Below are positions 9,276 to 27,889 of a DNA stretch of 64,000 nt, piece after piece. Positions within the stretch are counted from its first letter, which is position 1; every line of letters begins with the position of its first letter. Below the pieces are notes generated by a model, which was not told where the DNA came from, ran no database searches, and saw only the letters and a list, made by a program, of their open reading frames with translations. The DNA comes from Marinomonas sp. SBI8L. GTDB taxonomy: Bacteria > Pseudomonadota > Gammaproteobacteria > Pseudomonadales > Marinomonadaceae. A program made the translations under genes and the position numbers. The DNA lies in contig NZ_JSEO01000015.1 in NCBI RefSeq assembly GCF_001624705.1, forward strand, positions 1-64,000, given 5' to 3'.

Positions 9276-9483
9276 ATATAAAACTACCTATCCGGCAGAG
9301 CCTTTATGCATACTATAAGCCCCTTAGGCTTTCATTTAACAAGCTACCTATGCGGCAGAACACTTCGAAGATAGCGAGATCCATGGTGATTTTTGTTTAC
9401 AAGCTACCTATGCGGCAGAACACTTGATGATGTAGACGATAGGGCGCATAAAAGCTTTACAAGCTACCTATACGGCAGAACAC
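9276..9483 (-). CRISPR. Type I-F CRISPR array, four repeats and three spacers, between cas8/5 and cas7
   Basis: The 28-bp repeats lie at 9456-9483, 9396-9423, 9336-9363 and 9276-9303, exactly 60 bp apart, with 32-bp spacers. On the minus strand they carry the type I-F stem CTGCC-N5-GGTAG, so transcription runs with the operon. The first three differ at one or two positions. The last differs at nine but keeps the stem (CTGCCGGATAGGTAG). The leader-distal spacer before this divergent repeat matches the lysR gene next to the right end. A divergent repeat around the homing guide is a known habit of I-F3 elements. Confidence 0.95.
9304..9335 (-). other. Homing spacer targeting the adjacent lysR gene
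   Basis: Read on the minus strand this 32-nt spacer starts ATGAAAGCCTA and ends ATGCATAA. It matches lysR at 27099-27130 in 28 of 32 bases. The mismatches are at crRNA positions 12, 14, 22 and 24, and the first 11 positions (seed) match perfectly. Positions 12 and 24 are among those that are flipped out every sixth base in type I-F Cascade and do not pair. I found no match in the window for the other two spacers (9364-9395 and 9424-9455). Confidence 0.93.
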
Positions 9484-9662
9484 AACGATTTATTGATATA
9501 ATTCACTCCAATATCAAATACTTAACAATAAAACCCAACAAATACCATATAAACCCAACATTAATCTAACCTATTGATTTCAATATATAATTTTTATTTA
9601 AAAAAATAATAGGTTAAATTGTAAAAACAAATACTTTCAAACTATTATTTTTCATTTTCAAA
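9484..9662 (-). promoter_or_regulatory. CRISPR leader with repeated operator-like elements
   Basis: This AT-rich stretch separates the cas8/5 stop from the first repeat. It holds a direct repeat AAACCCAACA at 9531-9540 and 9551-9560 (20 bp apart, two helical turns) and an inverted repeat TAACCTATT / AATAGGTTA at 9567-9575 and 9608-9616. It probably carries the array promoter. The repeats look like a regulator-binding site, but no regulator has been tied to them. Confidence 0.45.
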
Positions 9663-11591
9663 TTAATAATTGTCTTTACCAATTAATATAGAGTTATTTC
9701 GAACGGTGTATTGCCAAAAATAATCCTCAACTTTCTCTGGGTTGAAAATACATAGCTTCACTGCTCCTAACACGGGTTCTACAAAAGCATGTTTATACTC
9801 TTGAAGGCTTGCGAGTTTAATATATGGCTTCTCTAAAAAGTGATACCCGACATTTGTTATTACCTTGGAATAGTCTTTAGAGATAACAGTTAACCAATTT
9901 TCAAGCGTATCTTCTGTCTCTTCATCTTTCAGGTTATCAGATGTTAACCAGCGCCCCTGAGTGGAAGGTAATTGTGTTATTGCTTCACTGATGTCGTCAT
10001 AAACCCTATTCATATTTAATGTTGAAATATTACTATGAACCGCCCCTCCACATAGCTTTTGAGGAATTGATAACGGGATCATTTCTTGAGCGATGGTTAA
10101 CTCTTTTGGCACTCGAATAATCATAGTCATTTTGAAGTCACAATGAGCTGAATCGTTTATTCCAGGTACAGCTAAGCTATCCATTGAGTTCATGGTCAAC
10201 TCTTTAATTACCCCTCTTCGATGCAATCCATACTCATGCAAACAAATCGCAAAACTTGTTTTTGAAACAATATCTTGACCAGTACCTATCAGCTTTCTTA
10301 AAAAGTGGTGCACAAAACCAAAACACCCTATTAATGAGGGAAAACCAACAACATAATCACTCGCATAACCATTAACATGACTTATGTTTAAATCTGGCAA
10401 AACAATGTATTTTACTTTGCCATCTTCAGAGCTTTGCTCCTGCTTCTGATGTGGCCGCTTCAACAGCCGCCCAACTCGTTGCTTTAAAAGTCTGATAATG
10501 TCAGGCTTGTACGATAAGGTTTTTAATGTATATGACGTAGCAAAATAGTTATTTAAATCAGCAACAATTTTATCTGTTTCATTTGCACTTACATCATCTA
10601 CCGTCTTTTTGAATCGAAAAGCGATCCAAGTGGTCAAAACAAAATCAATTTGAATAAGATTTGAACGCAATAGAGCTTTTTTGTGGTTTGCTGGTAATAG
10701 ACCACTTTTAACACTTAACCATTCTTCAAACACCTTCAAGAGCTGATTATTATCGAATATCTGAACGGGGTTTTGAGTATGATTTTTATTTAAATCTAAA
10801 AACCTATTCCTATAAACTAAAAGCTTTCCGGCAACACTCGATGCCACTCGCCCTACACTTGAAGGTCGTTGGCAATAATGCACCCATTGATTCTGATGCT
10901 TTCCCTTTAACCAGTTATGAAGCTTAATTTGCATTTGACTTGATACAACAGGCGTTAGAGACACGTACCCTTCTTTTGAAGGGAACCTAAGCTGGGACAG
11001 GTATGGCTGTGTTAGATCGGTAAGGGTAAAGTCATCACTGACTTTATTAAGCCCCTCTTTAAGATACTTAAGGTTTCTTTGGGTAATCCCTAATTGTTGT
11101 AGGCATTCATTTACCTTGACATCGTCTCTTAATATCAACTGACCCAACGAGGTTGATTGTCCTTGATAGCTAAATATTGCTGTCAAAAAAATGGCTATAT
11201 TAATATCAGAAGCGCTATTACTCCAATCAACAATCATTCGATCAAACTTAAATGAAGTCCAGTAACCCTGAGGTAAAGAACCAATTGTGCTTAGTCTTAA
11301 TGGGCCGTGTACACGATAATCTGGAAACTTAAGGTTATGTGTAATACAGAATTGGTATGATCTAGCAACCCGACCTAACCATTTTTGGTTTTGAAGAAGT
11401 GATTTACATAACGTCTTATCGAGAACATCAAGATCTGGACCCAATTTTTGCGTTAAATTAACTAAAGCACAAATTGCGTTTATCAAAACATCATCAACTA
11501 TCGATGGCACTGCAAAAGGTGAAAATGCTCTCTTAATTAAAGTATTTCGTACTATAGGGTCATTGTTAGCTATCAAAGAATGAAATTCCAT
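9663..11591 (-). CDS. cas8: Cas8f-Cas5f fusion, large subunit of TniQ-Cascade
   Basis: 642 residues, the size of the fused Cas8/Cas5 of I-F3 transposons. The start MEFHSLIANNDPIVRNTLIKRAF, the segment LKFPDYRVHGPLRLSTIGS and the C-terminal glycine-rich region KLCGGAVHS resemble this family. In known complexes this subunit holds the crRNA 5' handle, reads the PAM and contacts target DNA. Its ATG follows the tniQ stop by three bases, so the two are translationally linked as in relatives. Unlike the usual arrangement it is not followed by cas7: the CRISPR leader and array come next. Confidence 0.88.
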   Translation of the reverse strand: MEFHSLIANNDPIVRNTLIKRAFSPFAVPSIVDDVLINAICALVNLTQKLGPDLDVLDKTLCKSLLQNQKWLGRVARSYQFCITHNLKFPDYRVHGPLRLSTIGSLPQGYWTSFKFDRMIVDWSNSASDINIAIFLTAIFSYQGQSTSLGQLILRDDVKVNECLQQLGITQRNLKYLKEGLNKVSDDFTLTDLTQPYLSQLRFPSKEGYVSLTPVVSSQMQIKLHNWLKGKHQNQWVHYCQRPSSVGRVASSVAGKLLVYRNRFLDLNKNHTQNPVQIFDNNQLLKVFEEWLSVKSGLLPANHKKALLRSNLIQIDFVLTTWIAFRFKKTVDDVSANETDKIVADLNNYFATSYTLKTLSYKPDIIRLLKQRVGRLLKRPHQKQEQSSEDGKVKYIVLPDLNISHVNGYASDYVVGFPSLIGCFGFVHHFLRKLIGTGQDIVSKTSFAICLHEYGLHRRGVIKELTMNSMDSLAVPGINDSAHCDFKMTMIIRVPKELTIAQEMIPLSIPQKLCGGAVHSNISTLNMNRVYDDISEAITQLPSTQGRWLTSDNLKDEETEDTLENWLTVISKDYSKVITNVGYHFLEKPYIKLASLQEYKHAFVEPVLGAVKLCIFNPEKVEDYFWQYTVRNNSILIGKDNY

Positions 11592-11594
11592 AAA

Positions 11595-12800
11595 TCACCA
11601 AGTTGATGTCATAACGTGATAATTAGAGCCTTCTACTTGAAAGCTAGATAGCCACAGCAAAAACAGTTCATCTAACTGAAAGACACTTTGATGAGGTTGG
11701 ATAATTTCATCTGACTTAAGTTTTACAAAAGAGTGCAGTTCACCCTGATCATATAATGCAGAAACTTGATCGATCGAAATCCCTAATAAAATAGAAGCTT
11801 CAATTGCATTGACTGTGATTTTATTGAGGTTACTACCTTGCCATGATAATTGTGTATTTAGAAATTGATAAAGATGTTGTAACACAAGATTATCAGCTAG
11901 CCGGCTTGAAGGAAGCCTTATTGATTTATTCAGAATATCACCAAATACATCTGAGAACTTCGTATGCTTAACTGAAGCTGCTTTCATTTCAAGATGACTA
12001 AGGCATGTATTTAAATACTTATCAAAAAATTTAGGCCATTGAGTCATATACTCATTAAAGCTTTTAGAGCCTGTGGTTGATTCTCTAAGTTGTATCCACC
12101 ATAAATACAATCCCCAACGATGGACAATAGAAACAACAGGAAAAGCACCCACATGCTCCCCTGCGAGCCATTTACTGATATGTAGTTCTTCTTCATCAGC
12201 CTTAGCAACGACGTTAATATTCTTATAAGTAACACCACACTCAGGACATTGATCTATTGAATCGAGAAATAAGTAGTCGATATGCTCGCCACAGGCACAT
12301 TGATGAATAAGAGGACAACAATGACGGTGACAGACTGTGTAGGGTTCAAAGTGCCATATCTGCCTAATATAAGACGCTTCAGCTAAACATTCAGGGCAGA
12401 TGCCTATATTTGACTGATGCAGAAACTGTCGAGGGTATAGCCGCCCCTGCTGAATTACGCAGCCTACTCCTGAAGAATATTTTTGATTCGCTCTATAAAT
12501 AGCCAGCGATAAAACAGGTAAAACATCTTGAGCTGTCATCATACTAATTTGCTTTAAACATTTAAGTCGCTCGTTACTGCTATGTTTTGCAAAGCAAGGA
12601 TTCAACACGTGCAGATCAAGAGGTAACAAGCGTGACTTTGTGCCATTATGTTTATAGAGTTCAAAGTTTAAAGCGCCGACAAACGTCTTATACTTTTCAA
12701 AACCATTCGATTGAGCTAATCGTAAAAAATAGCTTTCGAGTGATTCATCTACATGTGGTTTAGGTCTAATTAATAGCAACTCAACCCCCTCCAAAAGCAA
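11595..12800 (-). CDS. tniQ: TniQ targeting adaptor (TnsD-like)
   Basis: 401 residues. The N-terminal RPKPHVDESLESYFLRLAQSNGF is the conserved opening of TniQ proteins. A zinc-binding region follows, with CPEC at residues 135-138, CHRHCC at 157-162 and CPEC at 185-188. The C-terminal half is helical. In I-F3 elements a TniQ dimer binds Cas6/Cas7 of Cascade and recruits TnsC, replacing the sequence-specific TnsD route. It heads the tniQ-cas8/5 pair, and 140 bp separate it from tnsC, enough for a promoter. Only one TniQ-like gene is visible, so guide RNA is the only targeting pathway I can see. Confidence 0.92.
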   Translation of the reverse strand: MLLEGVELLLIRPKPHVDESLESYFLRLAQSNGFEKYKTFVGALNFELYKHNGTKSRLLPLDLHVLNPCFAKHSSNERLKCLKQISMMTAQDVLPVLSLAIYRANQKYSSGVGCVIQQGRLYPRQFLHQSNIGICPECLAEASYIRQIWHFEPYTVCHRHCCPLIHQCACGEHIDYLFLDSIDQCPECGVTYKNINVVAKADEEELHISKWLAGEHVGAFPVVSIVHRWGLYLWWIQLRESTTGSKSFNEYMTQWPKFFDKYLNTCLSHLEMKAASVKHTKFSDVFGDILNKSIRLPSSRLADNLVLQHLYQFLNTQLSWQGSNLNKITVNAIEASILLGISIDQVSALYDQGELHSFVKLKSDEIIQPHQSVFQLDELFLLWLSSFQVEGSNYHVMTSTW

Positions 12801-12940
12801 CCTTTAAACATCTATCGATTATTTTTCTTTAGCGTTCAAAGTGACCTTTGATTTGATTCCAAGAGCAACATCACTGCGTTTCTACCTAGTAAGTGCTCGT
12901 ATCCAAAATGTGATATTTCTTCCATTACATCTGATCAAAA

Positions 12941-13939
12941 TTATTTACGACTAAAAAGATCGTTTAAGGACTTATCCTTATTGTCATTTTTAAGTGATAA
13001 ATGACCATAATCTATATATTCGTCCCAATCCTCTTGATTTTTTGGCTCTTGATAAGTGATTTTGTTAAGCGGCAACACAAAAGGATTATCAAATTTCTCA
13101 TTCAATAATAATTCTGTAGCCTTCATAAAATCAGTTAATTCAATCTTCAAATGATCTTCTAACAATGCAATTTTAGTGGCCAAATTGATCAGTTTTCGTA
13201 AGCGTCCCATGCTGCCTCTACAGAATGCATAAAGTGGTAAGGCTATTGCTTTTGAGGCTAGCTGACTAGGTTTTATGAAAGGTAGTGCTTTGTCGACTTC
13301 ATTTAGAAAGAGCAAATAAAATTCCCTTTCTTTCTCATCGGTTACTCGAAATGGCTTTAATACTCTTTGCAGAATAAATCGCCTAGCAAGCTGAGAGTTT
13401 GCTTCAAGAATATGTTTGCTATTTGGCATACCAAACATAACAACTGGCACTTTTGATCTAACGATTAACGTTTTAAGCCAGTCCGCAGCCCTAAATAGAA
13501 TTTTAGAACTGCGACGCTCAATCATATGCTGAAATTCATCAATAATGATTAGCTCTGTTTCGCAATTTTTAAGCAGAGTGACCAAACGATTATTTAGCAA
13601 TACAGCGTTATTTGACGTGCAATAAAATGGGTCATTAAGATCATTTAACATTTGTTGAGACGCTGAAATTGGAGACGAGTTTTCAGGTAATGTTGTATAT
13701 AAAACAGATACTACCGTTTTATTTTCTTTATCAACACTAGGGTAAATATCTAAATAACGTTGAATTAAACTTGTCTTTCCCGCGCCTGTATAACCAGTAA
13801 TTAGCATACAATCAGGTTCGCCACCTAAAAAAGAGTCTTGTCGACAGCTATCAATCTCCTGAAGAATTGAGCGTAAATACGGCGTATTCACAAAAAGATT
13901 TCTCACATCTGAATACTGTTTTTTGAACTGATTATTCAT
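12941..13939 (-). CDS. tnsC: TnsC AAA+ ATPase, transposition regulator
   Basis: 332 residues from the ATG at 13939, which overlaps the end of tnsB by eight bases. The frame could reach 13978, but that extension lies inside tnsB. Walker A is GYTGAGKTS at residues 49-57 and Walker B IIIDEFQH at about 131-138. These match the AAA+ ATPases that polymerise on DNA between the TniQ-Cascade target complex and the TnsA/TnsB transposase. The C-terminal tail is acidic and charged. No frame damage is visible. Confidence 0.93.
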   Translation of the reverse strand: MNNQFKKQYSDVRNLFVNTPYLRSILQEIDSCRQDSFLGGEPDCMLITGYTGAGKTSLIQRYLDIYPSVDKENKTVVSVLYTTLPENSSPISASQQMLNDLNDPFYCTSNNAVLLNNRLVTLLKNCETELIIIDEFQHMIERRSSKILFRAADWLKTLIVRSKVPVVMFGMPNSKHILEANSQLARRFILQRVLKPFRVTDEKEREFYLLFLNEVDKALPFIKPSQLASKAIALPLYAFCRGSMGRLRKLINLATKIALLEDHLKIELTDFMKATELLLNEKFDNPFVLPLNKITYQEPKNQEDWDEYIDYGHLSLKNDNKDKSLNDLFSRK

Positions 13940-15812
13940 CTTCTTTACCCAGAGTCGAAACAGACCAATTTGGTGCATCCAAACTTACTGTCCAATCATT
14001 TACATTCCTGTCACTTTCTTTCACTACCGTCAATGAATTGGCACCCTCAGCCTCTTTAATTTGTTTCGGTAATCCAATATCATTTTTTTCTAAATAACGC
14101 GCAGCTCTGACACGATTAGAGATGGTTGCCGATGATTTTTTTGTTTTAGTTTTCTTAGTTATTTGCACTTCTGACTCAATAATCTCTTTAATTTCTAACA
14201 TAGCAGTTACAAGATCATCGATATCATAGTTATGTCTAATATGTTCTCTTGCATATCTTCTATTCAAATTATGCTGCCAGAGCGTTAAACCTTGTGCGTA
14301 ATTCTGGTTTAAAGCAGGAACAATAAAATAAGCATCTTTTTCACAGTCTAAAACAAAGATAAAGCCTATATTTCCTGGGAGTTTTTTAATCTTAATTTTG
14401 CCATTTCCGTCTCTTGCTCTAAGTGCCGCCAATTTATCATTATGATAGCGAACGGAAAGAATATTTATACCATCATGACGTAAAGTTCTAATGTCAGTTC
14501 TACCAAGCTTGAAATCTAATTGCATAAGCGAACCATTAAATTCGCGGACCGGAAACATTGTCATTGATTCACGCCAAGTAAGATCAGGAATATTAGTTTC
14601 TAGTGAGTTAGGTGAAACTTGGTAAATATCTATAATCCACTTATGAATAATTTCTATCATTTTTGATTTGGAGATAACTGCATTTTTCTGAGGATCATAA
14701 TCGCCACGTGATAAAATATTACTGAAAGATTTACCAGGTATTGAAGAGAGTAACTCTGTATTTACAGTTCCAAAAAAACGCTCCACAGATGCTTTAAGCC
14801 AAGGATGTCGGACAGGATTACTAAGAACTTCAATCCCTAAATCACGACAGTTATCGGTTAAATTGTTATCCCAAAACTCTTTACCATTGTCAAAAACAAG
14901 TAACTCTGGAATACCATGTGCTGACCATGTATTAACAACACTTTGAAATTTATCTTTCACATAATCTTTTTTTAGAATCGAATTCTTTAATGCATAAGAG
15001 ACAGATAAAAAACTGGGTGGCTCAAAACCTAAATAAAAACCTGTAATTATTAAGCTATATGAATCTATTAATAAAGTCAGCCATGGCCTACCCAAGGGTA
15101 GCCTTGAAATATCATCGACAACAAATAAATCTAAACGAGTATGGTCTGCTTCAACTCGTTCTAATAAACGCGTTGTTTTAATTTTTTCTTTAACCACTCT
15201 AAAATCTTGACCTGCTTTTCTTTTTCCAGAAGTTAATTTTGTTTTTTCATAAGGGGTAACTTGATGATATCTTCTTCGAAATATTTCATAACTAGGATAA
15301 TTAAAATTAGTACCATGCTGATTGTTATATCGTTAAATTTCAGTTCTTAGAGTTCTCATTCCTTCTGCTAGACATGGTCTCTCAGCGCTTAAAGTTCTTT
15401 TTATATTTTCATTCAATAACCTATCTACTTCAGGCTCCAAATTTTTAACTCTATTGCCTTTTTTTTTAGCGGTTGTAACTAAAGAAACAATTTGAAAATC
15501 ACTTTCTTTAAATGATTTCCACCATCGAGATATTGTTCTCCAGTTCGGTATATCATCACCGAATTTTTCTTTTAATACTGGTAGGTGAGGAATAATATGC
15601 CTTTCTGTAAATATCTGAACGTCGTGATGAATGAGATAATTTATTATATTATAACGATGAATCGCTTCGTTACGTAACGTCTCTGAGAATACTGAAATAT
15701 CTTTGAAAACTTCATCATTATGGTAAGTTTGTTCTATTTCGTTTTGATTAGATTCTATTTCAGTAGGTTTACCTTCAAAAAAAGACTCGAAATTATTCAT
15801 CACTGCATCCAT
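13932..15812 (-). pseudogene. tnsB: TnsB transposase with one in-frame TAA stop
   Basis: The frame from 15812 to 13932 would encode about 625 residues but holds a TAA at 15333-15335, after residue 159. Translation on both sides stays in the same frame, and the residues after the stop (RYNNQHGTNFNYPSYE) continue a normal TnsB sequence through 45 codons to the long C-terminal frame. Catalytic DDE residues are visible: D223 (VEADHTRLD), D308 (LVFDNGKEF) and E344 (ASVERFFGT). TnsB binds the transposon ends and joins them to target DNA. A single recent nonsense change, sequencing error or suppressed stop are all possible. The start overlaps the end of tnsA by 13 bases. Confidence 0.88.
15333..15335 (-). 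other. In-frame TAA stop inside tnsB
   Basis: Read on the minus strand: ACT GAA ATT TAA CGA TAT. The flanking codons are in one frame with both parts of tnsB. One base change (for example to CAA, AAA or GAA) would restore a full-length transposase. Confidence 0.9.
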
Positions 15813-16420
15813 ACTTTTGATTGATTATCTATCAGTTTGTTTAAGTCTGTGCCTAATTTCCCTATCGCGATTAAAGAGCAAATTTCACACATTAAAGTGT
15901 TCCCGTTTCCTACACTCTTACTTACATCATTGATAGTTGGCGTCTTTAGAGAAACGATTTCGCTTATTAACTTATCAAGTAGCTCGCCTGAGCACTCATG
16001 CATTACATATCGATGTAAAATTTTAAGATTATCCAAGAGAGGCTTGATGCATATTTGACTTTCATCAATTACATAAAGCTCAAAACCAAGTTCTGAAGAT
16101 GCTTTTTTTTTAGCTTCAAATTCATATATAAATGAATCTTTAATAGCAATTTTTTGAGGTTTTACTTCGTATAAACAACGTATTCCCTGGCGGTCAATAG
16201 TTGCAAAATCGGGAGTATAGCTATGAATTTTATTTTCCAACTCATAATCAAACCCTAATGGTTGAGATTCGAATCTAATAACTTGAGGTGAGTACTCAAA
16301 GTGAAAGCACGCGTTGAACTCCAATGTCGATTCAGTAAGTATTGTTCTTCCTGTTTTATAACTTGGAAAACGATAGATATTGTTAACTGCTGACTTTCCA
16401 AGAATACGTTTGCGAATCAT
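15800..16420 (-). CDS. tnsA: TnsA endonuclease
   Basis: 206 residues from the ATG at 16420; the frame extends to a TTG at 16447, but the ATG after AAAAGTAG is a better start. Catalytic residues of the TnsA restriction-like fold are visible: E34 (TLEFN), D71 (YTPDF) and E85/K87 (LYEVKP). TnsA cuts the 5' strands at the transposon ends so that, with TnsB, the element is excised by cut and paste. The C-terminal half would contact TnsC. It is the first gene of the tnsABC operon and overlaps tnsB by 13 bases. Confidence 0.92.
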   Translation of the reverse strand: MIRKRILGKSAVNNIYRFPSYKTGRTILTESTLEFNACFHFEYSPQVIRFESQPLGFDYELENKIHSYTPDFATIDRQGIRCLYEVKPQKIAIKDSFIYEFEAKKKASSELGFELYVIDESQICIKPLLDNLKILHRYVMHECSGELLDKLISEIVSLKTPTINDVSKSVGNGNTLMCEICSLIAIGKLGTDLNKLIDNQSKVWMQ

Positions 16421-16447
16421 TTCAATACTACTTTTTAATAAAACCAA

Positions 16448-16807: not shown

Positions 16808-17233
16808 CTATTTACACCTATCTTCTAAGTGTCTGCGCACTGAATAAAAAGTTAAAACAGATGGGTTAGCTAACAAAACTTCTTTAACGCTGCGTCGTTG
16901 AAAGATAGGATGATTTATAGGTCTGTCCCAGAAATCACTTTCGCATCCTTTAGGGGAGGATAAGGCAATTGCTTTATGAATTCCAAGTAATAAAGACAAT
17001 CGATTTTCTAGGTCTGAGCTTAAGTCAATTGAATGCTCGTTTGAGGCCTGATTCAGCAATGAATTATAGGTATTATGTGATATTCCCCCCAATAAAACAC
17101 TTGCTTGATCTAATGTAAGATTCCAGTGCTTTGAACTTCTTTTTTCTTCAAACCAGATTAAAGCTACTGCATTAATTTCATTCATCGAATTTTTTACACT
17201 TATCATAGCGCACCTCATTACTATTTTTGCCAT
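16808..17233 (-). CDS. DUF2384 (MbcA/ParS/Xre antitoxin-like) protein
   Basis: 141 residues. The N-terminal part (WNLTLDQASVLLGGISHNTY) looks like a helix-turn-helix, and the C-terminal RSVKEVLLANPSVLTFYSVRRHLEDR resembles the DUF2384 toxin-binding domain, usually written PLDLL..G....L..VRRYLD. Such proteins normally neutralise a RES-domain toxin encoded next door. No RES gene is present, so this would be an orphan antitoxin or an unrelated regulator. The start may be an internal methionine at residue 6 or 10. It lies between the phage-lysis-like genes and tnsA on the same strand and could regulate either. Confidence 0.5.
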   Translation of the reverse strand: MAKIVMRCAMISVKNSMNEINAVALIWFEEKRSSKHWNLTLDQASVLLGGISHNTYNSLLNQASNEHSIDLSSDLENRLSLLLGIHKAIALSSPKGCESDFWDRPINHPIFQRRSVKEVLLANPSVLTFYSVRRHLEDRCK

Positions 17234-17288
17234 GTTGGAGCTTTACTAATACTGTCTAGAAAACTAAGGATAGTCCAATCAATTTGGA

Positions 17289-17995: not shown

Positions 17996-18169
17996 ATGGA
18001 ATCCTAGAAACGAAAAAGCCCCACACGAATGCAGGGCTTAGAAATGAGAAAGGCCCGCAATCTGCGATTGCCCTTTAGAGTAGGTTGCTGTAAACACAAA
18101 AATAACAGCGTGAAGAAAATGTAACCCCTAACACCTAGGGTTTTAAGGCTTACGCGCGTAATACTTCAA

Positions 18170-18392
18170 TTTCCTTTTCCTGTAACAAAACGGCAATTAA
18201 CACTCTAACTGCATGAATACTAATAACTTTTCATACCTAGCACTAAAAGCCGCGGGCGGTATACGAGCGGAAAATAGAGTGTGTTATTTGCATGTTTTTA
18301 GCGATAACTGTACTTAACATTTGTCTATTTAGAAGAAATTGAGTTTTCTTAAGGCAAAAAAAACAGCTTATTGGCTGCTTTCTTATCATGGA
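18170..18392. repeat. Repeated intergenic module, part 2, copy B
   Basis: Shares with copies at 20207-20405, 22165-22392 and 26142-26382 the blocks CGGCAATTAACACTCTAA, CACTAAAAGCCGCGGGCGG, GGAAAATAGAGTGTGTTATT and a terminal hairpin (AACAGCTTATTGGCTGCTTT). It abuts an attC site. AACACTCTA and TAGAGTGTG form a long-range inverted repeat around a GC-rich centre. Role unknown. Confidence 0.6.
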
Positions 18393-18485: not shown

Positions 18486-18504
18486 TTTTGTCTCAAAAGA
18501 CTTC

Positions 18505-19845: not shown

Positions 19846-19918
19846 TCCTATTATTGTTATAAATATCGTATAACTTGTTCATATAACAGAAACTGCAAGG
19901 CAGTAGAAACTTAACGGC

Positions 19919-20150
19919 TTAATAATGCGCACGCTCGGTTTGTGCGACTTATCCACCGCACTCAAAACGTCACATCTGCTTAATTAATTTGAAGAAAGGC
20001 TACTTATCAACTGAAAACCTTCCTGGTTAAATGCGCATGCGCGTTATTTCGATTCCTATTTTTGCTTGTCGAGCATGGTTATTTTCATACTACTAAGATA
20101 ATTAATTGATTCTACATAATTTAGTAATAGGCACAATGACAAAGCGTATC
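19919..20150. repeat. Repeated intergenic module, part 1, copy C
   Basis: Begins CTTAATAATGCGCACGCTCGG and contains AAAACGTCACATCTG, TTATTTCGATTCCTATTTTTG and GGCACAATGAC, matching copies A and E in order. It lies just upstream of the methyltransferase cassette gene on the minus strand. Confidence 0.6.
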
Positions 20151-20206
20151 AATCCTCATCAAAATGTGCCGTCCCCAAACAAACTGTATTTACAGCCAGT
20201 TTCTTT

Positions 20207-20405
20207 AGAGATTTCCTTTTCTACTTACAAAACGGTAATTAACACTCTAAATGCATGAATATTAATAATTTTTTATACCTACCACTAACAGCCGCGGGCG
20301 GTATACGGGCGGAAAATAGAGCGTATTTTTCGCATAGTGTTAGTAATAGTTGTATCTAAAATTTGTCTTGTTAGAAGAGATTGAGCTTTCTCAATGCAAA
20401 AAAAG
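20207..20405. repeat. Repeated intergenic module, part 2, copy C
   Basis: Contains ACGGTAATTAACACTCTAA, CCGCGGGCGGTATACGGGC and GGAAAATAGAGCG in the same order as the other copies, but lacks the final AGCAGCC hairpin. The remaining 20406-20640 holds no gene I can support. Confidence 0.6.
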
Positions 20406-20646
20406 GGCGGCGTTGTGGAGTCGGTTGAATGGCATTGTTAAATGGCTAAATACTCCGAACTGCCCGTTTATTCGACTGTGTATTGAACAATCAACTTCGC
20501 TAAGCTTGACCCAAACTTATGAAACTTTTGTTTTTAATAGGAAAGTGAGGAAGGCCAAGCTTTTCAGCGCCTTATAGTGAAGATAATTAACATAGCCCTT
20601 TAACACTCATATAGTGGAGAAAAAGACCATTACCTTTTAACCCCAT

Positions 20647-20675
20647 GTTATAGGCAATGTAAAACAACCTATAAC
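20647..20675. promoter_or_regulatory. Inverted repeat before the EEP nuclease gene
   Basis: GTTATAGG at 20647-20654 and CCTATAAC at 20668-20675 form a perfect 8-bp inverted repeat about 35 bp before the probable start. It could be an operator or a reduced integron core site. Confidence 0.35.
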
Positions 20676-20709
20676 AATGAGTAAAAACCAATTAAAAGAG
20701 GATAATATA

Positions 20710-21519
20710 ATGCAAAAAGATGATGTAAAAGTTTTGTGCTGGAACATACAATCAAAATCTCCCACCAATATAATGAAATTTATTGAAGCCACTAACATTG
20801 ATTGGGATGTCATTTTATTGCTAGAACCTGGGAAATTTTCGCAATACGATAAGAAGAAAGTTCCGTCTAAAAAAGTGAACTATTCATGTACATATCTAAA
20901 AAGTCATTCGGATCCACAGAGCAATTTAGCAATTCTAACAAATAGTAATGATAATATAATTAGTAAAATTACATCATTTGAGATACTGACAGGTGCTGCT
21001 CGGACATTGTGGGTGATAGAGATTGGTGGAATTCGCTTTGCTACATCTCATGCTCCATATAAGAAAAATGATGGGACAGGAGCCGATTGGTGTAACGACG
21101 CGAGTAAAACGGTGAAGGAGCAAAAAGTCAATGTTTGGCTTGGGGATTTTAATACGAACGGAAATACAGTTCCAGCGCCACTAAATAAGCAATATGCATG
21201 CTTGTTAGGAGGACTGCTAACAAGTTTAAATGAAAGCAAAGAGCTAGTAAGCCCATTTGATAAGATATGCGTAAGTAAAAACCTTTTTATCAAATTGGAA
21301 GCTAATGACAGAGCAGGGAGAGTATTACCAAAAATTCCGAAAGGATATTATCCGATGAAGGTAAATACACTCGAGGGTCCGGAAAAGGGTCCATGGAGTT
21401 CTGAAGACATCCAATTCAAAGACATAGATAACATTGAATTTCCATCAGATCATTTACCGATATACATAACTATTGAAGGATTCAGGACGACAAATTTTAA
21501 TGATGTATTCAATTTCTGA
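20710..21519 (+). CDS. Endonuclease/exonuclease/phosphatase (EEP) family protein
   Basis: 269 residues from the ATG at 20710, which has an AGAGG ribosome site; the frame also reaches 20677. EEP-fold motifs are in order: VLCWNIQS, LLLEPG (metal-binding Glu), ATSHAPYKK, WLGDFNTNG and the terminal FPSDHLPIYITI. The family includes DNase I-like nucleases, sphingomyelinases, phosphatases and CdtB toxins, so the substrate is not defined. There is no signal peptide. It is encoded opposite to all neighbouring cassette genes and overlaps a GNAT gene by 20 bases, suggesting a two-gene unit. Confidence 0.75.
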   Translation: MQKDDVKVLCWNIQSKSPTNIMKFIEATNIDWDVILLLEPGKFSQYDKKKVPSKKVNYSCTYLKSHSDPQSNLAILTNSNDNIISKITSFEILTGAARTLWVIEIGGIRFATSHAPYKKNDGTGADWCNDASKTVKEQKVNVWLGDFNTNGNTVPAPLNKQYACLLGGLLTSLNESKELVSPFDKICVSKNLFIKLEANDRAGRVLPKIPKGYYPMKVNTLEGPEKGPWSSEDIQFKDIDNIEFPSDHLPIYITIEGFRTTNFNDVFNF

Positions 21520-22039
21520 ATGCGGTGTGACCTTAGAGGTGCTAGACCAAAATCATATACCTTTCATATATAAAGGTTTAAATAATGAAAAACTAGCCAC
21601 TTCATATCCAATAAAACTGCCATATACACATATGGATGCAACTAGCTATGTAGATCGAGAGATGTTTGGTCGTTCAGCTGAGACTCGTTACTCTTTTGCC
21701 ATACTAAAAGAAAATAATTTTGTAGGTATATGCGCTATATATGATGTGAACAAAACTAAAGGATTTTCAAATTTATACTATTGGGTTGAAACCCAATATT
21801 GGAACCTTGGTATTGCAAGCATAGCCGTTAATAAATTACTTAAATTCGCTAAAAACGAATTGAACCTTACTCATATAGAAAGCGGTGTTTTAAAAAGAAA
21901 TCATGCTTCCTATCGAGTTTTAGAAAAAAACGGGTTTATAGTTGAAAATTCATTTATTAACAAAGGTAAATATCATAGAAAATTTCTTGGGGAAATTTTC
22001 TTGGAAATGAAATTGAACTTACAAAAGCATCCAGTATAA
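21500..22039 (+). CDS. GNAT N-acetyltransferase (RimJ/RimL-like)
   Basis: About 179 residues from the ATG at 21500 (or 21503), inside the end of the EEP gene. The acetyl-CoA site appears as VETQYWNLGIASIAVNKLL, a variant of the usual Q/R-x-x-G-x-G/A loop, followed by NHASYRVLEKNGF typical of RimJ/RimL-type enzymes. The acceptor is unknown. Coupling to the EEP gene suggests they act together, for example as an effector and a modifier. A strong terminator follows. Confidence 0.7.
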   Translation: MMYSISECGVTLEVLDQNHIPFIYKGLNNEKLATSYPIKLPYTHMDATSYVDREMFGRSAETRYSFAILKENNFVGICAIYDVNKTKGFSNLYYWVETQYWNLGIASIAVNKLLKFAKNELNLTHIESGVLKRNHASYRVLEKNGFIVENSFINKGKYHRKFLGEIFLEMKLNLQKHPV

Positions 22040-22052
22040 GCAAATAACAAAC

Positions 22053-22078
22053 CTAAAGCCCATTGAAATGGGCTTTAG
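22053..22078 (+). terminator. Strong hairpin after the EEP-GNAT pair
   Basis: CTAAAGCCCATT and AATGGGCTTTAG pair perfectly over 12 bp with a two-base loop, 13 bp after the GNAT stop. Confidence 0.75.
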
Positions 22079-22164
22079 CTCAATTATTGCTTACAGATGA
22101 TGAATACACTGCCATTTAACAATTAAGTAATTTGAAAAAGAAACTGTACATACAGACAGTTTTA

Positions 22165-22392
22165 TTAGAGCCTTCCTTTTCTCTTCACAAAACGGCAATT
22201 AATACTCTATCCATATGATTATTAATAACTTTTCATACCTAGCACTAAAAGCCGCGGGCGGTATACGGGCGGAAAATAGAGTGTGTTATTTGTATGTTTT
22301 TAGTGATAGCTGTACCTAACATTTGTCTATTTAGAAGAAATTAAGTTTTCTTAGGCAAAAAAACAGCCTATTGGCTGCTTTTTATCATGGGT
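22165..22392. repeat. Repeated intergenic module, part 2, copy D
   Basis: Contains ACGGCAATTAATACTCTA, CACTAAAAGCCGCGGGCGG, GGAAAATAGAGTGTGTTATT and the ACAGCCTATTGGCTGCTTTT hairpin. It abuts the attC at 22393. No reading frame is shared between copies. Confidence 0.6.
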
Positions 22393-22489
22393 ATTAACAC
22401 CATATTAAGAGGCAAAAAATTGTTGGCTAAAATTAGCGACGTAGGAGCAAAAGCCAACTGTTTTTTGTCCTTTTAAACGACTTGTTATG
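22393..22489 (-). repeat. attC integron recombination site
   Basis: On the minus strand it runs from ACATAACAAGTCGTTTAAAAGG to CCTCTTAATATGGTGTTAAT. The central stem pairs AGTTGGCT with AGCCAAC. It follows the AAA ATPase gene by a few bases. Confidence 0.7.
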
Positions 22490-22494
22490 TGCAT

Positions 22495-24843
22495 TTACAG
22501 TTCGTCATATACAATATTAATGACTTGTTCAGCTAGTGCTCTTGTATTTTCAAGCGTGTCATCGCCAATTTCGTGCATAGGTGTGTTTAAAGTATCTCGA
22601 ATCGCACTCAAGCGAGCTTCAAGCTCAGCAGTGATATAGCCGTTGTCCCTTAAAGCAACAGTGCAAACTGACAGGTCTGATTTCGCTTCACCAAGATCAA
22701 TGAGCTGTTTCTTAAAACGATGACGAATTTCTCCCTCAAAGAAAGGTCGCAAGGTTGTTAGAATGTTGTTATTAGTTTCACGATTAACAAATGCTTTAAT
22801 TCTGTCAAAAGCAACATCATGCTCTGTAGCCATCATGTCATCAATTTCAACGGCTTCTATCGAGCAAGTTTCAGCACCATGAACTAATTTTACCGATTTA
22901 GCGCACCGCCTGAATTTCTTCGCAGCTTTTGCTGCCATTCCTTTATAGTGAGTCGTTAGTACAAGTTGTTTAATAGTCCGTTGCAGCTCATCCAGCTTAT
23001 TGAGAATCAGTGCTATTCGCTCATTATCAAAACTAGTAACAGGATCATCCAGCACTAAAATAGCCTTAGCTTTCTCCTCTGTTGGAAGAGACATCACCTT
23101 AGCTAAAAATATACAAAGTGCTAGCGCTCTGCGGTCTGACTCACTAAATACTGTATTAATATTATCAGCAGAAATATCCTCACCTTTAAACTTAACACGA
23201 AGGTCATAGATAACTTGTCTGCCGCGATTATTAGGTACTTTGATAATCTTAAAGTTACTTGAGCCAAGCTGACGAAACAGTCCATTTATCAAATCAAAGT
23301 AAGTATCTAAATACGCTGTCTGCGATTGTTCGAGCTGCTGCTTTTGTGATTTATAAGTAGTATCTAACCCATTAACAGTTGCTAGCTTCTGCCTGTACTG
23401 AACACAAAGTGGCTCTAATGCTATCCGCTTTAGCGCCAAATTAGCTTGTGCTTGTTGTTGTGCGATTTCTGTCAATTGATGATTCAGCTCCACTTCATTA
23501 AGTGAGCCTTTATAAGCATTGAAGATAGCGTTAATTTGCTCTGCGACTACCCAATATTCATAGATAGCTTGATTATACGTTGTTGCTGCTATGTTCAGTA
23601 CATCGAAGGTAACGAGTTGAGCAGGTTCGTAGGGCGTAGTAAACTTTTGCTCTAGTCTCGGTATCCAGAATTCCGTTGCTTGCTGGCTATTTGCAATAAC
23701 GGCATCAAAAGAAGCGAGAATATCTTCATGCTTTTGTTCCAATGAAGCAGTTAAAGGCGCTAGAGCTTGATTGGTTATAATTTGAGGCTCCACATACAAC
23801 TCAAACACTTGTTTATTGGCTTGGTGTAGCTGAATAAGGTTTTCACGAGTATTTGGAATACTAAATGGCTGACGAAGGCCATTTAAAATTTGTCTTGTTT
23901 CTTTGTTAAATCTATCAAACTCAGCATTAAAAGCCTGCTGGTACGCAGCGATTAGGCCTTGAGCATCAGCACTTAAAGCCTGCCCACAGAAAGGACAATC
24001 ATCTTTTATTTGTGCGATACCTTGGCTAGCCCAACCTTTAAAAGTAGCTGAGTTGTTCACATGATTGCTCATGTGATTTTGCAGAGACACAAATGAATCT
24101 TGATGAACCTTTTGAAGGCTAGATGCTAGTACAGTATTAATTGAATCAATTGCTTGAGCAAAGTTGACCTGTGTACCAACCGCACTTAGAACATTACGAC
24201 GTTTGATTTTTTCGATATTCTGAATGGTAGTTGTGACTTGCAGTTTTGATGCTTCATGTGCCGCCACGTTAGTTTCTAACTGTTCTTTAGTCTCCGAAGG
24301 TAAAGCGGAGTTAACATACGCAGGAATACTACCCACTGCGTGAGTTGTAAATTGCCCTTCAATACCAGAAAGAAGTCTTTTTTCATCACGGATATTGCTA
24401 TTCATCTCAGCTAAAGCCGCAAACAAGGCGGTGTTACTCTCACCAAGAATAAAACTAGTCATGTTTTCAGAGTTTGGCCTCTCTTGCTTCTGACCAGTTA
24501 TTACATTTCTATGTATAAAGCTTTGGTCAAAAACATACAAACCTGAACAATCAGGAGTTTTTACTTGCCACTGACCGTTTTCGAATTTAGATGTAACATT
24601 ACCTGTCGCAGTACCAAACATGAATTCAACTTTAGGTGGTTTAGTTGGGTCATTTGGTATGCTTTTTCGGTGCATTATAAAATCAGGTGCATCTTCTGCT
24701 AGTGAATGAATAATATCACAGAGGGTACTCTTACCATTTCTGTTCTCACCATATATAACGGTCACATTACCAAGATCTATTCCACCTGCAACGGTTTTGG
24801 TGAAATTTCCAATACCTTGTATTAGCTTTATTTTTTTTAACAT
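22495..24843 (-). CDS. AAA_13-type ATPase with zinc hook (RloC/SMC-like)
   Basis: 782 residues. Walker A is YGENRNGKST near residue 30 and Walker B is AILVLDDPVTSFDNERI near residue 600; the signature-like SESDRRALALCIFLA lies just before it. Long coiled coils flank a CPFCGQ motif near residue 280, a half zinc hook of the Rad50/RloC kind. RloC-type proteins are anticodon nucleases activated by DNA damage, but I do not see their nuclease motif here, so I call only the ATPase scaffold. Such proteins are frequent in defence loci. It is a cassette gene with its own attC. Confidence 0.65.
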   Translation of the reverse strand: MLKKIKLIQGIGNFTKTVAGGIDLGNVTVIYGENRNGKSTLCDIIHSLAEDAPDFIMHRKSIPNDPTKPPKVEFMFGTATGNVTSKFENGQWQVKTPDCSGLYVFDQSFIHRNVITGQKQERPNSENMTSFILGESNTALFAALAEMNSNIRDEKRLLSGIEGQFTTHAVGSIPAYVNSALPSETKEQLETNVAAHEASKLQVTTTIQNIEKIKRRNVLSAVGTQVNFAQAIDSINTVLASSLQKVHQDSFVSLQNHMSNHVNNSATFKGWASQGIAQIKDDCPFCGQALSADAQGLIAAYQQAFNAEFDRFNKETRQILNGLRQPFSIPNTRENLIQLHQANKQVFELYVEPQIITNQALAPLTASLEQKHEDILASFDAVIANSQQATEFWIPRLEQKFTTPYEPAQLVTFDVLNIAATTYNQAIYEYWVVAEQINAIFNAYKGSLNEVELNHQLTEIAQQQAQANLALKRIALEPLCVQYRQKLATVNGLDTTYKSQKQQLEQSQTAYLDTYFDLINGLFRQLGSSNFKIIKVPNNRGRQVIYDLRVKFKGEDISADNINTVFSESDRRALALCIFLAKVMSLPTEEKAKAILVLDDPVTSFDNERIALILNKLDELQRTIKQLVLTTHYKGMAAKAAKKFRRCAKSVKLVHGAETCSIEAVEIDDMMATEHDVAFDRIKAFVNRETNNNILTTLRPFFEGEIRHRFKKQLIDLGEAKSDLSVCTVALRDNGYITAELEARLSAIRDTLNTPMHEIGDDTLENTRALAEQVINIVYDEL

Positions 24844-24946
24844 CTAACACTTATCCTTAAGCCATCAATGTAAATTTATTGATAGATAGACCAGTTAATT
24901 TATCTTAATCTGACCGAATTTACTGTGAGCGCGAAGTAGCGAAAGC

Positions 24947-25019
24947 ACATAACGCCCGTATTTGCGGCTGGTTTGAAGCGCAGCGGAAAACCAGTCCGGC
25001 AACATGCGCTTGTTATGTC
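24947..25019 (-). repeat. attC integron recombination site
   Basis: On the minus strand the site runs from GACATAACAAGCGCATGTTG to CGGGCGTTATGTG, with CTGGTTTTCCGC / CTTCAAACCAGCC forming the stem. AACAAGCGC and GGGCGTT are typical cassette-site ends. It overlaps the stop of the HEPN-like gene. Confidence 0.82.
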
Positions 25020-25848
25020 ATTCATTTTCAAATTCCTGTACATGAGCATCAATTTTTTCAGCCAACATACGACAATCTTTAACTAACCCTTTAATACTAT
25101 CTGCAGACACCGTTATAGGGGTTCCTTCCTTATCACAACCAGCTCTATGCACACAATCGTGCCTAACTCTAACTGCTCTGAAGAGCCATGATACATCCCC
25201 AAAATCACACGAAAGCACTTTCGCATACATTGGCTTTACCTTGCTCATATCATGAAAGATAATGCCTTTTAGATATGTGGCAACGGTTGACTTAATGTTG
25301 CTGTGCTGAGCGTAAATCTCGTTTACTGTAAACTTTCGATTTCCAAATTCTGGATCAGTTTCGATCAATTTCTTTGTTAATTTGTCGGAGTTCGTGACGC
25401 GATGGATAAATGTAGTTGATAGAAAGTGCTCTAGCGCAGAAACAACATGGGCATGCAACATCACCAACAAGCTAAATTGGGCGCTTTTCGTAGTTTCTAT
25501 TTGAAGCATTGCGGGGATATCAACCAACTGCTTATTGAACATTTCCAGCTGGTCTGAATGACCTACTTCCCACTCAAGTTCATCTTCCTCTGGGTCTTCC
25601 AAATCCCACTGGGATAAACTCACATAGGAGCCTGAAGTAAGACCATTGATTTTCGCCATGATAGACGGATCGTTATCATCGTCAAACCGAACAGTATAAC
25701 CATAAAGCAATCCATCATTGCTGTAATCACCGTCAATATCGTAAGTGATCTGCTCTAATTCATCTTCTGTAATTCCGAGGAAGTTAGCCAAACGGTAATT
25801 CTTTTGTACTTCAATTCGATCAAACCAGTAATCTTTAGTAGTGCCCAT
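25018..25848 (-). CDS. Cassette protein with HEPN-like C-terminal region
   Basis: 276 residues of an otherwise unrecognised protein. The N-terminal third is acidic (DIDGDYSNDGLLYGYTVRFDDDNDPS). The C-terminal half is helical and contains VRHDCVHRAG, which fits the R-x4-H active-site pattern of HEPN ribonucleases. HEPN proteins are common toxins and phage-defence effectors. Without structure prediction this is a motif-level suggestion. It has module E upstream and an attC immediately downstream, so it fits a cassette. Confidence 0.45.
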   Translation of the reverse strand: MGTTKDYWFDRIEVQKNYRLANFLGITEDELEQITYDIDGDYSNDGLLYGYTVRFDDDNDPSIMAKINGLTSGSYVSLSQWDLEDPEEDELEWEVGHSDQLEMFNKQLVDIPAMLQIETTKSAQFSLLVMLHAHVVSALEHFLSTTFIHRVTNSDKLTKKLIETDPEFGNRKFTVNEIYAQHSNIKSTVATYLKGIIFHDMSKVKPMYAKVLSCDFGDVSWLFRAVRVRHDCVHRAGCDKEGTPITVSADSIKGLVKDCRMLAEKIDAHVQEFENE

Positions 25849-25869
25849 TTTGATGACTCCCTACGAGGA

Positions 25870-26110
25870 CATAACAGCTTAATAATGCGCACGCTCTATT
25901 TGCCCGATTTAGTCACCGCAATCAAAACGTCACATCTAATTAATTTTTAAAAGGAAGGAAAATTGATTAATTGACAGCCTTCCTAGCTCAACGCTCATGT
26001 ACGTTAACTTGATTCCTATTTACCATTTTCAGGAACGGTTATTACATCCCTTCTAAGGCAGCTAATTGATTCTACATAATTTAGTAATAGGCACAATGAT
26101 AGTTCGTGTC
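25870..26110. repeat. Repeated intergenic module, part 1, copy E
   Basis: Contains CTTAATAATGCGCACGCTC, CACCGCAATCAAAACGTCAC, CTTGATTCCTATTT and GATTCTACATAATTTAGTAA, matching copies A and C. It lies directly upstream of the HEPN-like cassette gene. Confidence 0.6.
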
Positions 26111-26141
26111 ATTTCATTGATATTTGTAACATTAAAGCTAA

Positions 26142-26382
26142 CCAGTTTTATTAGAAATTTCCTTCTCCTGTCACAAAACGGAAATAAACACTCTAAATAT
26201 ATGATTACTTTTAACTTTTCATACCTAACACTAAAAGCCGCGGGCGGCATACGGGCGGAGAATAGAGTGTGTTTTTTACATAATATGAATAATAACTGCT
26301 TCTAGCTTGTGTCAATTTAGAAGCTAGTTGAGCTTATTTAAGGCAAAAAAAAGCAGCCAATTGGCTGCTTTCTTATTATAGG
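26142..26382. repeat. Repeated intergenic module, part 2, copy E
   Basis: Contains CACTAAAAGCCGCGGGCGG, a variant CATACGGGCGGAGAATAGAG and the perfect hairpin AAGCAGCCAATTGGCTGCTT. It abuts the attC at 26383. Confidence 0.6.
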
Positions 26383-26470
26383 CATTAACGCAGCCTTAAG
26401 CGGTGAGTAGCAGTTGACTAAAATGTGAAGCGAAGCGGAACCAAGCCAACGGTTACGAGTCCGACTTTAA
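26383..26470 (-). repeat. Degenerate attC-like site
   Basis: The far end, on the minus strand, is CCGCTTAAGGCTGCGTTAAT, and GTTGGCT pairs with AGTCAAC around a loop. The gene-proximal core is poorly conserved and overlaps the end of the gene at 26453. Confidence 0.5.
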
Positions 26471-26890
26471 GACCTTGTTTGCAATTTTGTCTCGATTACA
26501 AGCATATAATGACTCCATAACAAAAATGGAAATATTTCTGATTATATTCTCAAGAGAATCATCAACAACTAAGTATCCAGTCTTCTTGACTTGTGCGTTA
26601 TGATCTTCAAAAACATCAAGAATCATGGTAATCGACAGCAAACAATCATCATTACCGCGATAATGTTTCGCTAAGTTCTCAATTCTCCGATTTAGTGATT
26701 GTTTTGCTTTATCATCATAAAGTCCATTCGTATGAGCTATTTGATTCCTTATTATATTCAAAAAGCTCCACATAAGCTCTAGGGACTTAATATCGAAAAA
26801 GATCTTACTTCTATCATACAGTTCTTTTTCAAATTGCTGATTAATATCAGCCTTCGAGATAATTCCTTTTAAGCATACTGAATCGCCCAC
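26453..26890 (-). CDS. HEPN-like cassette protein near the right end
   Basis: 145 residues, helical, with MWSFLNIIRNQIAHTNG; RNQIAH fits the R-x4-H HEPN active-site pattern. The start (MGDSVCLKGIISKAD) lacks an obvious upstream domain, and the protein may be the C-terminal part of a larger one cut by the transposon right end, which lies about 90 bp upstream. It is the outermost cargo gene on this side. Assignment rests on the short motif only. Confidence 0.4.
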   Translation of the reverse strand: MGDSVCLKGIISKADINQQFEKELYDRSKIFFDIKSLELMWSFLNIIRNQIAHTNGLYDDKAKQSLNRRIENLAKHYRGNDDCLLSITMILDVFEDHNAQVKKTGYLVVDDSLENIIRNISIFVMESLYACNRDKIANKVLKSDS

Positions 26891-26980
26891 ACTTTAACTA
26901 TATAAAACTCAATGATAGTTATCGTAACACTACATATTGAACTAGTATTAATATTGTAATTAAATTACCGAATATAGCTG

Positions 26981-27049
26981 ATGTCAGATTATGCTTGTCT
27001 AAGATGTCAGCTTATGATTGTTTTATGTCAACTTATGGTTGTTTCGACA
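26981..27049. repeat. Transposon right end with three packed TnsB-type sites
   Basis: Three 17-bp sites in one orientation: ATGTCAGATTATGCTTG at 26981-26997, ATGTCAGCTTATGATTG at 27004-27020 and ATGTCAACTTATGGTTG at 27025-27041, followed by the terminal TTTCGACA. The 21-23 bp spacing is tight, as in Tn7-type right ends. The terminal 25 bp mirror the left end with one mismatch. Confidence 0.88.
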
Positions 27050-27054
27050 CTACT
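27050..27054. repeat. Target site duplication CTACT, right copy
   Basis: Matches 2134-2138. Two of its bases belong to the TAG stop of lysR, so the insertion spared the reading frame. Confidence 0.9.
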
Positions 27055-27889
27055 AACCTAACCCACCAACAAACTCTTCCAACAAGTCTTTCAACTCATT
27101 ATGCATTCGATAAGCCGCATAGGCTTTCATGTGAATAATGGGCGCCTCGTCGACTTTGAATAGCCTCCCTACTTTTAAATGCTCTTGTACCAAGGTATCG
27201 GGTAAGTAGGCTGCGCCGCCGTTGGCGAGTATGAGTTTTAGGGCGATACGGCCGCTGTTGGCGCGAACATTAGCAAGCTGACGCTGTGGAAAGGCGAGCT
27301 CGTGCTGAGTATTAAAAGGCGCGCCCCACTCGACTCTCACATAGGCGGTACCGAGTGCCTCTTCTAATGTTTGTTTAGGCTGACTTGTGACTAAGCTCAT
27401 GGGGATGCTGGCGACTTCTTTGACGATTAGGCCCTTAATATTGGGTTGCTCGTAGACAAAGCCGATATCTACCAAGCCTTGGTCCAGTTTTTCGACGACT
27501 CGAAGCGGTGTACTCTCCTCTAGTCTTAAAATAAGGTCAGGCTGGGTTTGATAAAGTTGATTTACCTTGTCTTGTAAGAAGCTATCCCAAAGCCCGGGTA
27601 CACCTGCAATCACAAGACGCTTTTTCTCTGTTTCTCCAAGGGCAGTGTCTTCATAGGCTTGCTCCCAAGCATTGAGAATAAATCGTGCGTGGCGCTCCAT
27701 GCGCTCACCTGCCGGTGTTAAACAGACTTCATGGTGCTTACGCTCAAACAAGGCAACGCCTAACAGGTTTTCAAGCTGTTTGATTCTAGCGCTTGTGGTC
27801 GACGTGGAAATACAGAGCTTGTCTGACGCTTTAGCAAAGTTACGCGTGTGGGTCACTTCAATAAAGGTTTCTAATAATATGGTGTCCAA
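27053..27889 (-). CDS. LysR-family regulator; attachment-site gene of the transposon
   Basis: 278 residues with an N-terminal winged helix-turn-helix (LETFIEVTHTRNFAKASDKL, residues 6-60) and a C-terminal effector domain. It is divergent from the SulP transporter gene and probably regulates it. The transposon inserted immediately after the stop codon. The target copied by the homing spacer lies in the last codons (MKAYAAYRMHNE), about 50 bp from the transposon end, so the gene is intact. This resembles the use of conserved gene 3' ends (glmS, guaC, yciA, rsmJ) by other Tn7-like elements. Confidence 0.9.
   Translation of the reverse strand: MDTILLETFIEVTHTRNFAKASDKLCISTSTTSARIKQLENLLGVALFERKHHEVCLTPAGERMERHARFILNAWEQAYEDTALGETEKKRLVIAGVPGLWDSFLQDKVNQLYQTQPDLILRLEESTPLRVVEKLDQGLVDIGFVYEQPNIKGLIVKEVASIPMSLVTSQPKQTLEEALGTAYVRVEWGAPFNTQHELAFPQRQLANVRANSGRIALKLILANGGAAYLPDTLVQEHLKVGRLFKVDEAPIIHMKAYAAYRMHNELKDLLEEFVGGLG
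27099..27130 (-). other. Protospacer of the homing crRNA in lysR
   Basis: 28 of 32 bases match the array spacer at 9304-9335. The bases 5' of the protospacer on the matching strand are AC, not the CC typical of type I-F. Forty-nine bp (27050-27098) separate its PAM-distal end from the transposon right end, in line with the 48-50 bp known for I-F3 elements. Confidence 0.93.

Follow-up and report, generated by a model that had tools for sequence, protein, structure and literature searches.

Does a transposon in Marinomonas sp. SBI8L sit at the end of a lysR-family gene because one of its own CRISPR (clustered regularly interspaced short palindromic repeats) spacers directed it there? The window, meaning the whole 64,000-nucleotide stretch analysed here (positions 1 to 64,000 of NZ_JSEO01000015.1, its start being the start of the host contig), contains a Tn7-like type I-F3 CRISPR-associated transposon (CAST) of 24,911 bp at 2139-27049. 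Judged from the DNA and its comparison with relatives, this element was very probably guided by RNA to the 3' end of lysR, the guide being the last spacer of its array. The mechanism is a known one; it is met here with an attachment gene that we did not find in the literature searched, in a deep lineage, and with an array position unseen in relatives.

An I-F3 transposon at the stop codon of lysR

The anatomy of the element, its ends, target duplication and empty site, and likewise the spacer match and its distance described below, are directly observed. TGTCGAAACAACC occurs in exact copies at 2139 (plus strand) and 27049 (minus strand), within a terminal inverted repeat of 25 nt that is 96% complementary. 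Each end carries three CAACCATAAGTTGACA-like sites, tightly set at the right end and spread at the left, and CTACT lies directly outside both ends. Tn7-like ends with repeated TnsB-like sites and a 5-bp target duplication are characteristic of I-F3 CASTs. The full I-F3 gene set is likewise present, in the minus-strand order (from the tnsA side) tnsA, tnsB, tnsC, tniQ, fused cas8/5, CRISPR array, cas7 and cas6, with tnsB present but interrupted. Cargo flanks this tns-cas block on both sides. The features of the ends and of the insertion site are as follows.

2134-2138, no strand: target-site duplication CTACT, left copy
2139-2242, plus: left transposon end, TGTCGAAAC..., with three TnsB-like sites at element positions 9, 63 and 89
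26982-27049, minus: right (tnsA-side) transposon end, with three closely spaced TnsB-like sites at positions 9, 30 and 53
27050-27054, no strand: target-site duplication CTACT, right copy
27053-27889, minus: lysR-family gene, the attachment gene, coding sequence spared; nearest named model HdfR, below cut-off
27099-27130, minus: protospacer, spanning the lysR codons for the C-terminal residues MKAYAAYRMHN

The empty site is found in a relative of the same genus (G066), whose LysR is 97% identical. The left flank (1654-2138) matches G066 L053:9349-9833 at 95.9% identity and the right flank, from 27050 onward, matches G066 from L053:9829 at 86.7%; the two matches overlap by 5 bp, corresponding to the duplicated target. 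Because the element went in just at the stop codon of lysR (27053-27055), the gene was left whole. Its assignment to the LysR family comes from Pfam, and its neighbour is a sulfate permease gene. No further copy of the right end was found in the host genome, where the matches are the element's two ends alone. Further out, at 1-1653, the left flank is unlike that of G066, and a piece of an IS110-family transposase (78-458) lies at the contig end.

The last spacer matches lysR at the expected distance

The array (9276-9483, minus strand) has four repeats with a 60-bp period and three 32-nt spacers.

9276-9303, minus: repeat R4, terminal and diverged (atypical), following the homing spacer; shares 73% identity with R3 in a 30-nt alignment
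9304-9335, minus: homing spacer S3 (leader-distal), matching lysR at 28/32
9336-9363, minus: repeat R3
9364-9395, minus: spacer S2, no target found
9396-9423, minus: repeat R2
9424-9455, minus: spacer S1, no target found
9456-9483, minus: repeat R1, leader-proximal
9484-9662, minus: A+T-rich sequence between cas8 and the array, presumed leader

The homing spacer adjoins the atypical repeat, as is usual for I-F3 CASTs. Compared with the protospacer, likewise in minus-strand orientation, it is mismatched at its positions 12, 14, 22 and 24, leaving a perfect 11-base seed and perfect pairing at 1-11 and 25-32. Exactly 49 bp (27050-27098) lie between the protospacer and the tnsA-side end (27049), in keeping with the spacing of about 49 bp typical of I-F3 CASTs. 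This match, its seed and its distance had been put forward in a sequence-only reading, and they stood up to a re-reading of the coordinates, to shuffling, to comparison with background DNA and to genome scans. Shuffling the homing spacer 500 times gave at most 24/32 in the window. Over 3,428,564 positions of background DNA the best chance score was 21/32, three hits of 28/32 and one of 32/32 having been set aside as presumed copies of the lysR site and the array. A scan covered 390 genomes of the order; 18 of them belonged to the genus, with the host either counted among these or additional, and G066 was not in the sample. A pattern that left the four mismatch positions free and allowed up to three further mismatches matched the host alone there, at the spacer and at lysR. 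Among 49 genomes of the genus, one per species, the same pattern matched the host and G066 only.

Excerpts of PMC12774636 on VpCAST, the I-F3a element of Vibrio parahaemolyticus, describe insertion mainly 49 bp downstream and a preference for 5'-CN-3' as protospacer-adjacent motif (PAM). They further report that mismatches at positions 13-17 and 19-23 have little effect while those at 25-29 abolish transposition, and that position 12 is among the flipped-out every-sixth positions. The mismatches of the Marinomonas spacer fall where VpCAST tolerates them or at every-sixth positions. Translated in the frame of lysR, the homing spacer has a TAA stop whose last base is position 12; a spacer with such a stop could not have been copied exactly from a functional lysR. 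The spacer of a sister element, L059, likewise reads V-stop-R against the VCR of its target. Both in-frame stops are, in our reading, the result of drift at the every-sixth positions, which the effector leaves unpaired.

By analogy with studied I-F3 systems, we infer that the guide caused the insertion and that the complex acted as it does in them. The last spacer would yield a CRISPR RNA (crRNA) that guides TniQ-Cascade to the 3' end of the lysR-family gene, and TnsABC would then integrate the element with its tnsA-side end leading, 49 bp downstream and right at the stop codon, which leaves lysR intact. The gene set, ends, duplication, empty site, distance, orientation and significance of the match all support the RNA-guided I-F3 insertion proposed in the sequence-only reading.

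Control elements

Controls were drawn from 19 loci with tnsA in reach. Four of these with a clear match were used (L063, L114, L128 and L133), and the addition of two sister elements (L059 and L060) and of L078 gave seven framed controls. Offsets lie at 47-51 bp in six of the seven (47, 47, 50, 51, 51 and 51), and the matches reach 23-27/32, that is, 5-9 mismatches. L114, from Shewanella ANA-3, matches at 27/32 with an offset of 47 bp. L128 and L133, both from Pseudoalteromonas, match at 25/32 and 24/32 with an offset of 51 bp, a second TGT at 54 also being possible. The sisters L059 (target in L147) and L060 (target in L148) match at 25/32 and 23/32, with offsets of 51 and 50 bp, and L078 matches at 23/32 with a TGT at 47 bp. 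Beside these, the four mismatches of the Marinomonas spacer are not unusual; it scores highest of all eight framed cases, with a typical spacing.

Evidence against guided insertion, and alternative explanations

Several observations weigh against guided homing to lysR. The PAM is AC at the lysR site and AT at the G066 empty site, differing from the CN preferred by VpCAST. The target is poorly conserved, with the protospacer in 2 of the 49 genus genomes, unlike classical attachment genes, and the lysR site is known from a single insertion and one empty site. The host has no Cas1 able to take up this spacer. Among the controls, L063 (Vibrio) matches at 26/32 with its nearest TGT at 66 bp, and the spacer of the sister L059 is mismatched at 28-30, so the mismatch rule seen in VpCAST does not hold for every element. 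Ten of the 19 control loci gave no usable match; nine of those ten have best scores of 19-23, as expected by chance over so many comparisons. The tenth, L077, has its tnsA hit on the array side and therefore yielded nothing but a self-match. In four loci with matches resembling signal recognition particle (SRP) RNA (L079, L081, L086 and L134; 25-28/32), the best 32-mers put the TGT at 61, 60, 56 and 57 bp; since repeats do not frame the matching stretch as they would a plain spacer, these loci are not counted. That SRP-RNA-like stretch lies downstream of the array, matches the flank and is seemingly longer than one spacer.

Part of this evidence would suit an insertion that was still guided, at a secondary target, by a spacer made for another gene: the four mismatches, the non-CN PAM, the little-conserved target gene and the stop codon that the spacer shows in the lysR frame. 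However, no better match exists among the 390 genomes of the order or the 49 of the genus, within the pattern used. The homing spacer likewise has no match in viral contigs (exact pattern, seven positions free) and no plasmid or phage hit with E <1. Control homing spacers carry 5-9 mismatches, and that of L059 has an in-frame stop too. We consider a guide made for another gene very unlikely. Somewhat less probable still is a guide-independent landing beside lysR, with the spacer copied from the neighbouring gene later. In its favour, a single sequence does not reveal the order of events, and the target gene lacks the conservation typical of attachment genes. Against this, no Cas1 is found in the whole host genome, and spacers were therefore probably not acquired in this host; moreover, a fresh copy should match at 32/32, yet both species have the same 28/32 target, and distance and orientation fit guided insertion. 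Chance similarity between lysR and an unrelated spacer can be dismissed, given at most 24/32 in 500 shuffles, 21/32 at best in 3.4 million positions, and a match at the expected distance and orientation.

lysR as an attachment gene

The main I-F3 homing sites listed in excerpts of PMC11406308 are guaC, yciA, ffs and rsmJ, with parE reached via TnsD. lysR is none of the four main genes associated with I-F3a and I-F3b. Partial accounts of Shewanella elements give attachment at cobO and at ParM/StbA, the LysR of PMC12150760 is a regulator and not an attachment site, and LysR does not appear in the excerpted text of the Tn7 survey PMC10293859. lysR as an I-F3 attachment gene was not found in the literature searched, which excluded the catalogues Petassi 2020 and Klompe 2022; with that limit, the earlier suggestion of a new attachment gene agrees with the literature searched. 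The further insertions at this gene that the same suggestion called for were sought and none was found: besides the host, G066 alone has the protospacer (one genome per species in each case), and its site is empty. Within the genus, three genomes encode a LysR of 57-58% identity and the others, G066 aside, only more distant ones; the homologous site in those three scores 16 or 17/32 against the spacer. Homing to a gene whose target is present in so few species of the genus suggests that the guide can be re-aimed at narrow targets, and opens both attachment-site evolution and the gain of homing spacers without Cas1 to direct study.

Relationship to other I-F3 elements

Scanning a single genome from each species with a TniQ profile yielded 80 of 81 confirmed loci; the scan used one peptide pattern, and relatives lacking that pattern are missed. 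The search for TniQ relatives in viral contigs returned 29 stretches, none of them confirmed. In a midpoint-rooted tree of TniQ, Cas8/5, Cas7 and Cas6, built from 76 of 87 loci and the Marinomonas element (11 loci not entered), the element joins L059 and L060 (support 0.805), and the three together join a Vibrio/Photobacterium clade (support 1.0). In line with PDB similarity, we take this clade to be probably I-F3a; Tn6677 (VchCAST) is another I-F3a element, and L049 corresponds to Tn6900.

Like VpCAST, the Marinomonas element has tnsABC, tniQ, fused cas8/5, cas7 and cas6, a homing guide and a spacing of about 49 bp. It differs from I-F3a in its attachment gene, which is lysR and not yciA or guaC, and in having its array inside the cas operon. 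Its tnsABC genes run in the same direction as tniQ-cas, whereas they run in the opposite direction in the four Vibrio/Photobacterium loci in view (L063, L064, L066 and L068), and its TniQ is 31-33% identical to those of the clade. With I-F3b (Tn6900 and the Shewanella ANA-3 CAST L114) it shares codirectional tns and cas genes and homing by guide, but I-F3b lies on another branch of the tree, uses rsmJ and ffs as attachment genes and has its array downstream of cas6.

The nearest relatives are L059, from an uncultured Alteromonadaceae bacterium, and L060, from Aliiglaciecola sp. M165, with identities of 49% for Cas7, 42% for Cas6, 36-37% for TniQ, 32% for Cas8 and 53% for a piece of TnsB. Both resemble the Marinomonas element in having the homing spacer at the array end, and differ from it in having the array downstream of cas6 and tnsABC some 14-17 kb away from tniQ. 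Their homing target is a thioesterase gene, which at L147:5077-5595 belongs to NCBIfam family PRK11688 and in L148 is the same place by alignment; this gene, too, is outside the four main sites. Since the sisters home to a thioesterase gene and the Marinomonas element to lysR, the attachment gene has changed within the clade, and the sisters add yet another site to it. Two loci from other genomes of the genus (L057 in G015 and L058 in G024) belong to a different, distant I-F3 lineage and group with that of Oceanospirillum linum (L129).

Position of the array

The gap between cas8 and cas7 measures 506 bp in the Marinomonas element and contains the array. This placement is seen in none of the 82 relatives that have cas8, cas7 and cas6: in 76 the repeats lie downstream of cas6, and in 6 the patterns used detected no repeats. 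Of 83 relatives, 78 have a cas8-cas7 gap of at most 13 bp. The other five have larger gaps without repeats, which we attribute to cas8 or cas7 genes that are broken or only partly matched. Excerpts of a Shewanella survey (PMC12452197) give three array layouts, none with the array between cas8 and cas7, and that phrase does not occur among the papers listed in a literature search.

We tentatively suggest that a deep I-F3 lineage re-aimed its homing guide at lineage-specific genes, departing from the four classical ones, and moved its array between cas8 and cas7, so that the homing crRNA, Cas7 and Cas6 may share one Cas6-cut transcript, tying guide production to Cascade supply; we think this scenario rather unlikely to hold as a whole. 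The terminal repeat R4 retains a 5-bp hairpin and, with the T run that follows, scores as a terminator-like site (1 found against 0.3 expected). If real, such a terminator would part the array from cas7 transcription and so counts against a single transcript. Terminal repeats decay in ordinary arrays too. A consensus scan of 9484-9662 found no sigma-70-like promoter site on the minus strand, and Rfam gave no hit within 1-32000. With its array placed inside the cas operon, the element offers a layout worth testing for regulation.

Elsewhere in the host genome no clustered repeats form a further array, and there are four scattered single repeat matches with one mismatch. Spacers S1 and S2 have no target in viral contigs (exact pattern, every-sixth positions free), no plasmid or phage hit with E <1 (query 9304-9455, including repeats) and no match in the 49 genus genomes except the array itself. 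S1 matches a site inside the element, at 20559, at 23/32, a score of at least 23 being reached by 5 of 500 shuffles of another spacer.

Transposition genes, cas genes and cargo

7544-8200, minus: cas6f (Csy4); Pfam PF09618, NCBIfam TIGR02563
8137-9156, minus: cas7f (Csy3); Pfam PF09615, NCBIfam TIGR02566; best PDB match Cas7 of 7u5d
9663-11591, minus: cas8/cas5 fusion; Pfam PF09614; near full-length alignment with I-F3 Cas8/5 chains 9vtq and 6lnb
11595-12800, minus: tniQ; Pfam PF06527; matches PDB TniQ of I-F3 elements at E ~1e-67
12941-13978, minus: tnsC; Pfam TniB and AAA
13932-15812, minus: tnsB, with an in-frame TAA at codon 160 (15333-15335); neither piece has a Pfam hit
15800-16447, minus: tnsA; Pfam PF08722
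16808-26890, no strand: tnsA-side cargo, among it a PDC-S06-like AAA gene (22495-24843)

By PDB comparison, Cas8/5 and TniQ fall with the I-F3 chains 9vtq and 6lnb/6lnd. The 53% identity given above for TnsB was measured with its C-terminal piece, against the gene that lies between tnsA and tnsC in the sister elements. The reading frame of tnsB is open on both sides of its single in-frame TAA, which reflects either a nonsense mutation of recent origin or an error in the sequence. If real, the premature stop prevents a whole TnsB, and the present copy of the element is therefore probably immobile. No Cas3 was found among the element's open reading frames (ORFs) scanned, some small ones being unscanned and no Cas3 profile having been run on the genome. 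As for an Xre regulator of the RtaC/RtbC kind, 16808-17233 has no Pfam or NCBIfam hit, and the other small ORFs were only partly scanned. An rve-domain transposase gene (6437-7393), IS30-like by our reading, lies 3' of cas6.

Two cargo genes match candidate defence models: 22495-24843 matches PDC-S06 (E 1.5e-174), and 4030-6009 matches Tmn (E 9e-82, over roughly half the model). Between cargo genes lie modular intergenic repeats with lengths up to 495 bp (19909-20403, 25869-26350, 22137-22362 and 18169-18361). The same repeat type occurs in the chromosomal flank at 1663-1890, with 15 matches in the host genome including the query, and these repeats may permit the exchange of cargo genes through recombination.

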